The translations under genes and the position numbers were made by a program. Shown here in pieces: positions 58,237-60,926 of a stretch of 64,000 nt of DNA. The stretch covers positions 372,001 to 436,000 of the forward strand of contig JAHLLG010000001.1 of the NCBI GenBank assembly GCA_020444275.1, read 5' to 3'. The notes beneath the pieces are model-generated. The model was given only the letters and a program-made list of their open reading frames with translations, was not told where the DNA came from and ran no database searches. Numbering within the stretch: the first letter of the stretch is position 1; each line of letters opens with the position of its first letter. This DNA is from Bacteroidota bacterium. GTDB lineage: Bacteria > Bacteroidota > Bacteroidia > Bacteroidales > UBA12077.

Positions 58237-58268
58237 AAAATCCGATCAATACCGATCGGATTTTTTTT
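58237..58268 (+). terminator. intrinsic terminator of lon
   Basis: A 7-bp perfect stem tccgatc/gatcgga extended by A-T pairs, with a 6-base loop, and eight T residues beginning at 58261. It separates lon from the radical SAM/lipoprotein cassette. Confidence 0.92.
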
Positions 58269-58329: not shown

Positions 58330-58758
58330 ATGAAAAAATTAATTCTTACAACTGCTAATAAAGCCATATTGTTGCTGCTGATTTTTTTAGGTTTTGCCTG
58401 TGATTCCGACGATGATTTTAACGGTAATGTCGAATATGGATCATTTTCAGCCGATTTTAAAGCCACAGGAACAATCGTCGATAAATCTACATTAAATAGA
58501 CTTTCTGGTATTCAGGTAGCTATGGGTGGTGATACTGTTTATAGTGGACAAAATGGAGAATATGTAATAACTGTACGCAATTCACCAAATATACAGAAGT
58601 ATGATATTAGTTTTGTGGATACGAACATGATTTACCCACCTAAAGATACTGTATTAGATTTTTCTGATGAGATGTTTGAAAATGGCGATGAATGGTATAA
58701 AGGAATTAAAACCATGCAAGTTGATATTAAACTAGAGCCCAATGAGTTTCCAAATTAA
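58330..58758 (+). CDS. small lipoprotein of rSAM/lipoprotein system, copy 1
   Basis: 142 residues. Lipoprotein signal with lipobox LGFAC (Cys24), then an acidic stretch (DSDDDFNGNVE) and a carboxypeptidase-regulatory-like beta domain: ADFKATGTIVDKSTLNRLSG, IQVAMGGDTVY, GQNGEYVITV and a final DEWYKGIKTMQVDIKLEP. It is of the type found beside radical SAM enzymes in Bacteroidales (from memory, the TIGR04134 family). The second copy begins 9 bases downstream. It probably sits at the cell surface; what modification it may receive is unknown. Confidence 0.85.
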   Translation: MKKLILTTANKAILLLLIFLGFACDSDDDFNGNVEYGSFSADFKATGTIVDKSTLNRLSGIQVAMGGDTVYSGQNGEYVITVRNSPNIQKYDISFVDTNMIYPPKDTVLDFSDEMFENGDEWYKGIKTMQVDIKLEPNEFPN

Positions 58759-58767
58759 TATTTTAGA

Positions 58768-59220
58768 ATGATGACCCAAAGAATTCTATCATTAATAAAT
58801 AAATTAATTCTTCTAACATTAACAATCTTAGGTTTTTCATGCACTGAAGATCAACCTGATGAGTATGGAATGCCATATGCTGATTATAAAATTAATGGTG
58901 CAGTAATCAGTGAAGAAACATTGGAACGTTTGCAAAACATTCAGGTCGTCATGCAAGATTCTGAAATGATAGATATTCATGCTGATACGTGTTATACTGA
59001 TGCGAATGGATTGTATGAAGTAAAACTAAAGGACTGGACTAGTGATAAAACTTATATTTTTAAATGCATTGATGTTGATGGAGTAGTCAATGGTGAATAT
59101 GAACCCTTAGACAGCACTGTTACATTTGAAAATCCTGAATTTGAAAATTCTAACGGAAACTGGGACCGAGGAGAGGTTTCCAAAACCATAGTTGTTAAAT
59201 TGACTGCAAAGAAAGATTGA
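58768..59220 (+). CDS. small lipoprotein of rSAM/lipoprotein system, copy 2
   Basis: 150 residues; a second ATG follows directly. Lipobox LGFSC (Cys25), then EDQPDEYGMPYADYKINGAVI, the YG.P.A.Y pattern of lipoproteins paired with radical SAM enzymes. It aligns with copy 1 over TLxRLxxIQVxM, GxY and the end (FEN....W..G....V.KL), yet differs in most residues, so the duplication is old. An IDIHADTCY insertion adds a Cys. 13 bases separate it from the radical SAM gene. Confidence 0.87.
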   Translation: MMTQRILSLINKLILLTLTILGFSCTEDQPDEYGMPYADYKINGAVISEETLERLQNIQVVMQDSEMIDIHADTCYTDANGLYEVKLKDWTSDKTYIFKCIDVDGVVNGEYEPLDSTVTFENPEFENSNGNWDRGEVSKTIVVKLTAKKD

Positions 59221-59233
59221 AAAAGATTTATTT

Positions 59234-60313
59234 ATGATAGGAAAGATATCTTTTAGGAAAAAAATAGCTCTCGATCTTTATCGTAAATATAAAAACAATA
59301 CCACCAAGCTGCACGAACTTACTTACCTGTTTTGGGAATCAACTCTTCGCTGTAATTTAAATTGTAAACATTGTGGTAGCGATTGCAAATCAGATTCTTC
59401 GCAAAAAGATATGCCGCTGGACGATTTTATTGGAGTTATTGATCAAATCAAGAAACATGTAAATCCGAATAAGGTTATGGTTGCCATAACAGGCGGAGAG
59501 CCTTTACTGCGCAACGATCTGGAAAAATGTGGAAGCGAACTTTTTCAAAGAGGATTTCCCTGGGGTATGGTGACCAATGGATATCTTCTTACTAAAGAAC
59601 GATTAGTATCGCTCTTAAAATCAGGCTTGCGATCCATAACAATAAGTTTGGATGGTTTAGCCGAATCGCACAATTGGTTAAGGGGGAAAGATAAAAGTTA
59701 TATTAAAGCACTGAATGCCATTAGTATGGTAACTGCAGTTGATGATCTTGTTTACGATGTAGTAACTTGTGTAAATCAAAAAAACATTAACGAATTACCC
59801 AGATTAAAAGAACAACTTATAAATATGGGTGTAAAGGAGTGGCGAATATTTACTATTTTTCCTGTAGGTAGGGCGAAGAGTAATGAACTGTTAAAGCTTA
59901 AACCTACTCAATTTAAGGAGGTATTTGATTTTATAAAGGAAACCAGAACTGAAGGAAAAATAAAACTCAACTATGGTTGCGAAGGATTTTTAGGAAGTTA
60001 CGAAGGAGATGTACGTGATAATTTCTTCTTCTGCAGAGCTGGTATAAATGTTGCATCTATTTTAGCCGATGGTTCAATATCTGCCTGCCCGAATTTACGC
60101 GATAATTTTGTACAGGGGAATATTTATAATAATGATTTCTTAACCATCTGGAATACTAAATTCGAGGTGATGAGAGATCGAAGCTGGACAAAAAAGAACG
60201 ATTGTGCAGCATGCAATTTCTATAAGTACTGCCAGGGAAACGGTTTACATCTGTACGATGAAAACAAAAAGTTCTTGTTTTGTCATTATAACAGGTTGCT
60301 CGAAGCAAATTAA
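59234..60313 (+). CDS. radical SAM/SPASM enzyme of the rSAM/lipoprotein system
   Basis: 359 residues. The radical SAM cluster motif CxxxCxxC is Cys40-Cys44-Cys47 (LRCNLNCKHCGSDC), with the SAM-binding GGEPLLR and SISLDGLAESHNWLRG. The C-terminal SPASM domain carries cysteines in FCRAGINVASILADGSISAC, CAACNFYKYCQG and FCHYN, enough for two auxiliary clusters. The family (TIGR04133 as recalled) is found with lipoproteins of the kind encoded directly upstream. It likely modifies a peptide or protein in the cytoplasm, before export. The gene set 58330-60313 is one operon. Confidence 0.9.
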   Translation: MIGKISFRKKIALDLYRKYKNNTTKLHELTYLFWESTLRCNLNCKHCGSDCKSDSSQKDMPLDDFIGVIDQIKKHVNPNKVMVAITGGEPLLRNDLEKCGSELFQRGFPWGMVTNGYLLTKERLVSLLKSGLRSITISLDGLAESHNWLRGKDKSYIKALNAISMVTAVDDLVYDVVTCVNQKNINELPRLKEQLINMGVKEWRIFTIFPVGRAKSNELLKLKPTQFKEVFDFIKETRTEGKIKLNYGCEGFLGSYEGDVRDNFFFCRAGINVASILADGSISACPNLRDNFVQGNIYNNDFLTIWNTKFEVMRDRSWTKKNDCAACNFYKYCQGNGLHLYDENKKFLFCHYNRLLEAN

Positions 60314-60389: not shown

Positions 60390-60926
60390 ATGAAAATGGG
60401 TGCAGGAATCTTTTGGGGACTTTTACTAATTCTTATAGGAATAGGAATAGTAATTCGAGTAGTATTTAATGTTCATTTCCCCATCGTAAAATTTATTATC
60501 GCATTTTTCTTTATCTTTATTGGTATCCGAATGCTTATTGGAAATTTCAATACCTGGGATAATAAAGGCGATGATCACACGACAATTTTTAGTGAAAGTA
60601 AAATCGAAGGGGTTGAAGAAAAATTCAAAGAATACAATGTAATTTTCGGAAGCTCTGTAATTGATCTTCGAAATGTTGATCTAAGTAACGGATCAAAAGA
60701 GATTGAGGTAAACACTGTTTTTGGTGAAACGGAGATAAAAATTAATCAATCAACTCCAATTCGAATAAAAGCAGAAGCGGTATTTGCTTCGGCTAAATTG
60801 CCAAACGGTAACACGGCTTCGTTCGGAACAACAACATATGAAAGTGAAAATTTTGAGAGAGACACCAATCATATTTATATAAAAAGTGATGTTGTTTTTG
60901 GCAGTTTTGAGGTAAGAACGTATTAG
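60390..60926 (+). CDS. LiaF-like membrane protein with C-terminal beta domain
   Basis: 178 residues. The N-terminus has two to three transmembrane helices (ILIGIGIVIRVVF, FIIAFFFIFIGIRMLIG) as in LiaF_TM. The soluble part has repeated strands of the form VIFGSSVIDL, NTVFGETEIKI, EAVFASAKLP and DVVFGSFEVRTY, the repeats of the LiaF C-terminal domain. LiaF-like proteins in other phyla take part in envelope stress sensing; here it has no histidine kinase nearby. It lies 76 bases after the radical SAM gene, so co-expression is possible. Confidence 0.8.
   Translation: MKMGAGIFWGLLLILIGIGIVIRVVFNVHFPIVKFIIAFFFIFIGIRMLIGNFNTWDNKGDDHTTIFSESKIEGVEEKFKEYNVIFGSSVIDLRNVDLSNGSKEIEVNTVFGETEIKINQSTPIRIKAEAVFASAKLPNGNTASFGTTTYESENFERDTNHIYIKSDVVFGSFEVRTY

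Follow-up and report, generated by a model that had tools for sequence, protein, structure and literature searches.

A window of 64,000 nucleotides from a Bacteroidota bacterium of the order Bacteroidales (contig JAHLLG010000001.1, positions 372,001 to 436,000) contains a cassette of three genes, in which two exported lipoproteins are followed by a radical S-adenosylmethionine (SAM)/SPASM enzyme. Here 'the window' refers to this whole stretch of DNA. The genes are arranged as lipoprotein 1, a gap of 9 nucleotides, lipoprotein 2, a gap of 13 nucleotides, and the enzyme (Table 1), just as a first-pass annotation made from the sequence alone had described them. The present analysis concerns the enzyme and a short motif, Y-G-x-P, that its partners carry.

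The annotation had assigned the set to the NCBIfam families TIGR04133 and TIGR04134, and a profile search bears this out. The enzyme scores 583.9 bits on TIGR04133 over residues 7-355 (curated cut-off 425), and lipoproteins 1 and 2 score 61.6 and 104.1 bits on TIGR04134 (curated cut-off 39.8). These families, rSAM_w_lipo and lipo_with_rSAM, are hypothetical equivalogs with the same gene order; their names state no reaction, and TIGR04134 captures only part of the partners. On Pfam, the enzyme matches Radical_SAM (65.4 bits) and SPASM (34.0 bits), with nothing else above the cut-offs. The source genome has a single enzyme and just these two lipoproteins above the cut-offs of the two families.

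Both lipoproteins have a predicted lipid cysteine following a hydrophobic stretch, as in a lipoprotein signal. They had been described as sharing only short motifs, but homology, at 32% identity (E 2e-17), extends along the greater part of both proteins. To the single lipoprotein of the cassette in a near relative (locus L024), lipoprotein 1 is 51% identical, and the figure for lipoprotein 2 is 43%.

Table 1. Features of the cassette and its borders, in positions of the window.
Feature	Positions	Strand	Remarks
Terminator-like stem behind lon	58237..58264	.	Left cassette border; stem scan
Lipoprotein 1, 142 aa, predicted lipid Cys24	58330..58758	+	TIGR04134 member
Degenerate motif E-Y-G-S-F, lipoprotein 1	58432..58446	+	YG retained, no Pro; EYGMP in the L024 relative
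Lipoprotein 2, 150 aa, predicted lipid Cys25	58768..59220	+	TIGR04134 member; transthyretin/CnaB-like body
Predicted splice motif E-Y-G-M-P, lipoprotein 2, residues 32-36	58861..58875	+	Low-confidence linker, lipid anchor to body
Radical SAM/SPASM enzyme, 359 aa, TIGR04133, predicted splicease	59234..60313	+	Profiles, tree, fold model
CxxxCxxC (Cys40, 44, 47) of the radical SAM cluster, then G-S-D-C	59351..59374	+	Alignment
SPASM cysteines 267, 285, 324, 327, 333, 350	60032..60283	+	Invariant, 64 aligned rows
LiaF-like gene	60390..60926	+	Right cassette border; adjoins lon in 3/3 congeners without cassette

A Y-G-x-P motif beside the enzyme

With TIGR04133 at E ≤ 1e-60, the enzyme was detected in 68 of 295 genomes of an order sample (60 of the 295 exceed the TIGR04133 cut-off) and in 3 of 395 genomes of a phylum sample. 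Co-occurrence with the lipoproteins, expected by the first-pass annotation, is evident in the order sample, where 38 of the 39 genomes with TIGR04134 over cut-off have the enzyme versus 30 of the 256 others (Fisher test, 5e-28). The converse is weaker, as 30 of the 68 enzyme genomes lack any TIGR04134 over cut-off. It was these many genomes that led to the discovery of the common motif; in 23 of the 30, a YGxP partner adjoins the enzyme gene.

The motif was counted in 96 loci, consisting of 82 further enzyme places of the order sample (two rows of genome G636 being one gene), one place of the phylum sample, the 12 most similar loci from other collections, and the window. The enzyme belongs to TIGR04133 in 90 of them and is more distant in six (L033-L035, L212-L214). 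Open reading frames (ORFs) with a lipobox were selected blind to YG. Among those adjoining the enzyme, at least four of which lie just downstream of it (L031, L199, L188, L209), YG is present in 63/69 and YGxP in 57/69, across loci that are partly non-independent (L026 and L173 have identical upstream sequence, and the L034 and L035 enzymes are 97% identical). The counts are 92/129 and 78/129 in the wider neighbourhood (2.5 kb upstream, 1 kb downstream), and 17/122 and 0/122 elsewhere in the same loci.

When any small ORF is considered, YGxP adjoins the enzyme in 78 of the 90 TIGR04133 loci and in two of the six more distant loci. Chance origin of the motif was rejected, as opposite-strand ORFs of the same interval have it in only 4 of 90 loci; on the same strand 2.5-3.5 kb upstream, it appears in 1 of 71. 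Of the 12 TIGR04133 loci without an adjoining YGxP, two (L155, L207) are truncated by the end of a contig, and seven (L028, L031, L175, L176, L199, L210, L211) have YG without Pro nearby or YGxP farther away. L028 (2540-2888) contains a 116-codon ORF with DVAYGSS and ETAYGPC and no signal peptide, located between a 323-codon ORF and the enzyme.

In 108 distinct motif contexts, for which YG was the selection criterion, Tyr is most often preceded by Glu (24), Cys (21), Lys (17), Met (13) or Val (11). Pro is at +3 in 90 of them, a count biased upward by preferring sites with Pro where available. The window partners differ at this position, having EYGMP in lipoprotein 2 and EYGSF in lipoprotein 1, and together with the EYGMP of the L024 relative they are a natural test of the role of Pro. 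Very likely, YG is the target of the enzyme.

The motif is found in proteins of differing bodies. Single-linkage clustering with the motif removed divided 103 YGxP ORFs into 17 clusters, the largest being a transthyretin-like one of 69 members. The remaining 34 fall into 16 clusters (11, 7, 2, 2 and 12 singletons), although some singletons are random ORFs and short tails may fail to cluster through shortness alone. Inheritance of the TIGR04134 body alone was rejected as the explanation of YGxP because these 34 lie outside the main body cluster. They include short lipoproteins with one to three motifs in the tail (up to three in L179), coiled-coil-like lipoproteins with VYGSP, and the zinc-ribbon partners of L034 and L035 with CIYGPPP and no visible lipobox. 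Partners with CYGxP, in which the predicted lipid Cys itself precedes the motif, have no separate body, as 28 of 30 are inside the main cluster. Zinc-ribbon proteins at L034:1933-2263, L035:5650-5974 and L033:3558-4641 adjoin distant TIGR04133 relatives and carry CIYGPPP, or VYAPP and CIYGPP.

The motif also varies in position: it may immediately follow the predicted lipid Cys (CYGTP), come 5-16 residues later, or lie mid-protein or close to the C-terminus. In L156, L159, L165 and L167, the motif (AQYGAP) follows an apparent signal peptidase I site. QYG after a probable signal peptidase I site was also observed in L240, L253-L255 and L257. Throughout this class, the mature N-terminus would be Gln-Tyr-Gly, which fits the published Bacteroidetes Q-rule (PMC5837995).

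Motif class follows the enzyme tree. When four motif classes were placed on a tree of 93 enzymes, 5 changes were needed versus a mean of 36.4 after shuffling (0 of 200 shuffles as low), with 80 of the 93 rows labelled by a fixed class order, L146, L151 and L154 assigned to the coiled-coil class by hand, and near-copies inflating a signal that is nonetheless large. Enzyme and motif thus evolve together.

TIGR04134 relatives unlinked to the enzyme gene also retain the pair, as 12 of 14 in enzyme genomes have YG near the anchor, eight of these as YGxP. Genome G521 has six TIGR04134 matches, and in some genomes several YG lipoproteins lie unlinked to the enzyme locus (L246, L248, L249, L250; G521, G539), suggesting substrates in trans. 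In G416, an enzyme fragment adjoins a CYGTP lipoprotein. In genomes without detected enzyme, seven TIGR04134-like matches lack YG at the anchor (G479, G445, G491, G456, G531, G351, which is L016, and G124 of the phylum sample), a modest control given that the matches are weak and partly multidomain. Seven further weak matches in the phylum sample (L017-L023) have no YG in the stretch inspected. Near the weak G456 protein, a different radical SAM stretch, only 23% identical, was observed (L258:1492-2238, minus strand).

Kinship with PlpX-type spliceases

When plasmid records were searched with the window enzyme, a Nostoc enzyme surfaced that is annotated as nif11-class maturase 3 and scores 853 bits on TIGR04103. 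TIGR04103 is presumably the PlpX family, for which the paper gives IPR026482. The Nif11 precursor directly upstream of the Nostoc enzyme ends in GSIALYGLPPELF (ALYGLPPELF).

A tree of 61 enzymes has a branch with support 100/95 that separates two sets. One consists of TIGR04133, together with its distant rows, and the clade of TIGR04103 (one row) and GDL-motif enzymes; the other consists of 26 further SPASM rows. The same branch has 93 by the Shimodaira-Hasegawa-like approximate likelihood ratio test (SH-aLRT) in a quick tree of 68 enzymes. From 68 less similar loci of other collections, 32 entered the quick tree and 25 the 61-row tree, seven long-branch rows being dropped. Hidden Markov model (HMM) scanning of 17 of the 26 opposite rows found members of AhbD, NirJ, NirJ1 and NirJ2 over cut-offs, and one more row is annotated as MftC. 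The AhbD and NirJ enzymes of the haem pathway, which have small-molecule substrates and similar HMM scores on the window enzyme, are thereby separated from it. Assigning TIGR04133 by HMM score alone failed, as TIGR04103, AhbD, NirJ2 and TIGR04053 score alike. The radical SAM cysteines of the window enzyme are invariant in 64 aligned rows, as are the SPASM ones.

PlpX is a SPASM enzyme working with a RiPP recognition element (RRE) protein, PlpY (PMC11002830), where RiPP stands for ribosomally synthesized and post-translationally modified peptide. PlpX-type enzymes are described as removing tyramine at XYG (PMC10533398), and this splice motif has MYG and LYG as natural sites (PMC10533398; also PMC11002830, PMC10373908). 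Tags based on the PlpA2 core, such as PIRPGYGLPI, are reported to be spliced in some unrelated proteins (PMC10533398).

As here, the PlpX-type SPASM enzyme of spliceotide systems adjoins X-Y-G-x-P precursors. Its substrates have leader peptides of the Nif11/NHLP kind, whereas the window substrates are folded exported lipoproteins; it also differs in having the PlpY partner, one more SPASM cysteine, and a TIGR04103 score above cut-off. The GDL-motif system (TIGR03913 with DUF1843 peptides), which groups with the TIGR04103 enzyme, has small peptides whose Tyr lies close to the N-terminus (PYG, LYG, MYM, LYA) and no lipoproteins. DUF1843 peptides with Y-G, Y-A or Y-M near the N-terminus were observed beside TIGR03913-type enzymes at L223:2156-2869, L227:1028-1743 and L261:1787-2242, and this sister system might use related chemistry. 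At the PlpX-like locus of Tropicibacter (L260), no YG ORF of 30-120 residues was found.

We propose that TIGR04133 is probably a stand-alone splicease of the PlpX kind that acts on exported lipoprotein precursors. The proposal is based on the cassette, the adjacency of the motif, the differing bodies that carry it, the co-diversification, and the kinship with a PlpX-type enzyme whose precursor has the same motif. By analogy, the reaction would be excision of tyramine from the protein backbone at the Tyr of YG, which we consider probable. The first-pass statement that the chemistry is unknown is thus narrowed to a specific proposal.

Several observations weigh against it. The tree is unrooted, with outgroups chosen by similarity to the query. 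On TIGR04103, the window enzyme scores 132.1 bits, far from the cut-off of 725, and the AhbD and NirJ2 models score it as well as TIGR04103 does. A SPASM cysteine of PlpX-type rows (CRGGC/CRAGC) is missing in TIGR04133 (CQGNG). No PlpY-like gene or further small cassette gene adjoins the window enzyme; the search did not extend to distant RRE genes. Several splice tags or tag positions in FtsZ were not accepted (PMC10533398, Table 1), so YG alone is insufficient for PlpXY, and the GDL peptides, having YG, YA or YM, indicate that YG is not strict across the whole clade. No convincing YG partner is seen at the TIGR04133 loci L158, L162 (with an upstream assembly gap) and L182, and none at the three most distant Bacteroidales rows (L212-L214). 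The lipoprotein adjoining the enzyme has CYA instead of CYG in L206 and L210, and YG is lost in L247. Genome G618, a fragmented draft, has two YG lipoproteins (2/2), with no enzyme found in it.

Other explanations of the motif

The enzyme model has a mean predicted local distance difference test (pLDDT) score of 86, and its fold matches SuiB (top), SkfB, anSME and PqqE; Pfam finds no added recognition domain. SuiB cross-links peptides, and triceptide-type SPASM enzymes form cyclophanes in which an aromatic ring is joined to a nearby residue. The Tyr of YGxP could then be cross-linked to a neighbouring residue within Y-G-x rather than excised, for which both the fold and the aromatic-x-x three-residue spacing speak. 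However, x may be Gly (KYGGP in L166 and L170) or Pro, leaving no ordinary beta-carbon partner, and among clades with a published reaction, the nearest one splices at XYG; we therefore regard a cross-link as unlikely. Some other radical change at Tyr-Gly, such as epimerisation, oxidative decarboxylation or dehydrogenation, would suit the versatility of SPASM enzymes and the AhbD and NirJ2 scores on the window enzyme, yet the AhbD/NirJ types lie across the supported branch and, by their model names, act on tetrapyrroles. We give such a change little chance.

It is quite improbable that YGxP is merely a docking tag and the change takes place elsewhere, in TLxRLxxIQVxM, FEN..W..G or the lipobox Cys. 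The first two had been put forward by the first-pass annotation as positions that may be recognised or modified; each occurs in just one of the 103 YGxP partners, whose common element is Y-G-x-P. In favour of this reading, an alignment of 33 transthyretin-like relatives shows Trp132 and Gly135 conserved in at least 90% of its rows, which were chosen for YG, so that the YG invariance of that alignment is no evidence; also, one motif class places the predicted lipid Cys directly before YG. Against it, the W..G part alone is present in 38 of the 69 members of the transthyretin-like cluster but in 2 of the 34 remaining partners, and the zinc-ribbon partners of L034 and L035 show no lipobox. Finally, YGxP could serve as a signal for export or sorting, or be a structural remnant, independent of the enzyme. 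Bacteroidota sorting signals lie near the lipid Cys, as YGxP often does, and 69 of the 103 YGxP ORFs belong to one homologous cluster. This explanation is very improbable, as none of the 122 other lipobox ORFs of the same loci has YGxP, the motif is also found near C-termini and in zinc ribbons, and the anchor YG is missing from the (weak) TIGR04134-like matches of enzyme-free genomes.

Proposed course, distribution and meaning

In the proposed splicease course, the enzyme would recognise a flexible X-Y-G-x-P in the cytoplasm. In lipoprotein 2, this stretch separates the lipobox from the folded domain; the structure model places EYGMP in a linker of low confidence (block means 51 and 67), flanked by the signal helix with Cys25 and by a beta-sandwich from residue 38, and this linker could be reachable by the enzyme. 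A fold search with lipoprotein 2 found generic folds only (transthyretin-like, CnaB, Ole e 1-type allergens, intradiol dioxygenases). Modification would come first and take place in the cytosol, the compartment of SAM and Fe-S chemistry, and the first-pass reasoning that the enzyme acts before lipoprotein export is sound as an inference. Export, lipidation and anchoring would follow, and the product would bear a reactive, electrophilic ketoamide next to the membrane. A leader protease and peptide transporter of the RiPP type were absent, the window neighbours of the cassette being lon and the LiaF-like gene. The cassette product is probably the whole modified protein, not a released core peptide.

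Spliceotide products are described as protease inhibitors (PMC11117315, PMC10373908). By that precedent, the anchored product might inhibit serine or cysteine hydrolases, a tentative and rather doubtful role, or it may protect or cross-link the anchor region. A shield against hydrolases and covalent attachment are equally conceivable for an anchored protein. In the CYGTP class, the enzyme may act on the lipid-anchored cysteine itself, in which case ribosomal beta-amino acids would be a standing part of bacterial envelopes, beyond secreted peptides; we hold the chances of this to be balanced.

The cassette site is also found empty. The three further genomes sampled from the window's genus (G490, G589, G673) all lack the cassette, and in each of them the LiaF-like gene comes after lon as its neighbour. 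In G673, the site spans 144 bases, a few of them coding at either end, with a terminator-like stem and the sequence leading into the LiaF-like gene, and G490 and G589 have at the empty site a short ORF with no similarity to cassette proteins. L024 has a cassette at the same site, with one lipoprotein. Thus, the cassette comes and goes as a unit. As for the lon terminator said to isolate the operon, a terminator-like stem is indeed present, but the scan reports it on the minus strand and about one such site is expected by chance.

Named carriers are Dysgonomonas, Prevotella, Treponema, and plasmid-labelled records of Parabacteroides distasonis and Phocaeicola massiliensis. In Treponema saccharophilum (L224:1797-2441), an annotated master DNA invertase of the Mpi family lies directly before a CYGMP lipoprotein and the TIGR04133 enzyme, and this cassette may be phase-variable.

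The survey of Scott et al. 2022 reportedly underlies 939 predicted splicease systems, and TIGR04133 may already be among them. A search of a literature collection by TIGR04133, TIGR04134 and the family names found no paper there, and among the matches listed, none links spliceases with lipoproteins or Bacteroid terms. PMC8326336 and PMC11002830 mention both 'spliceotide' and 'Bacteroid', in unrelated passages, and a word search for splice, lipoprotein and TIGR0413 had no match in a survey of Bacteroidales RiPP clusters (PMC10352776).

A hypothetical family here becomes a sharp prediction of one tyrosine, one mass change and one short motif. Excision of a tyrosine piece from a backbone is rare chemistry, known so far from peptide natural products, and about a fifth of the sampled order genomes carry the enzyme, with Parabacteroides, Prevotella, Dysgonomonas and Treponema among the carriers in other collections. 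If the proposal is true, membrane-anchored proteins of common bacteria would bear reactive ketoamides, and a short motif that functions in different protein settings would offer a natural tool kit for introducing a ketone into proteins.

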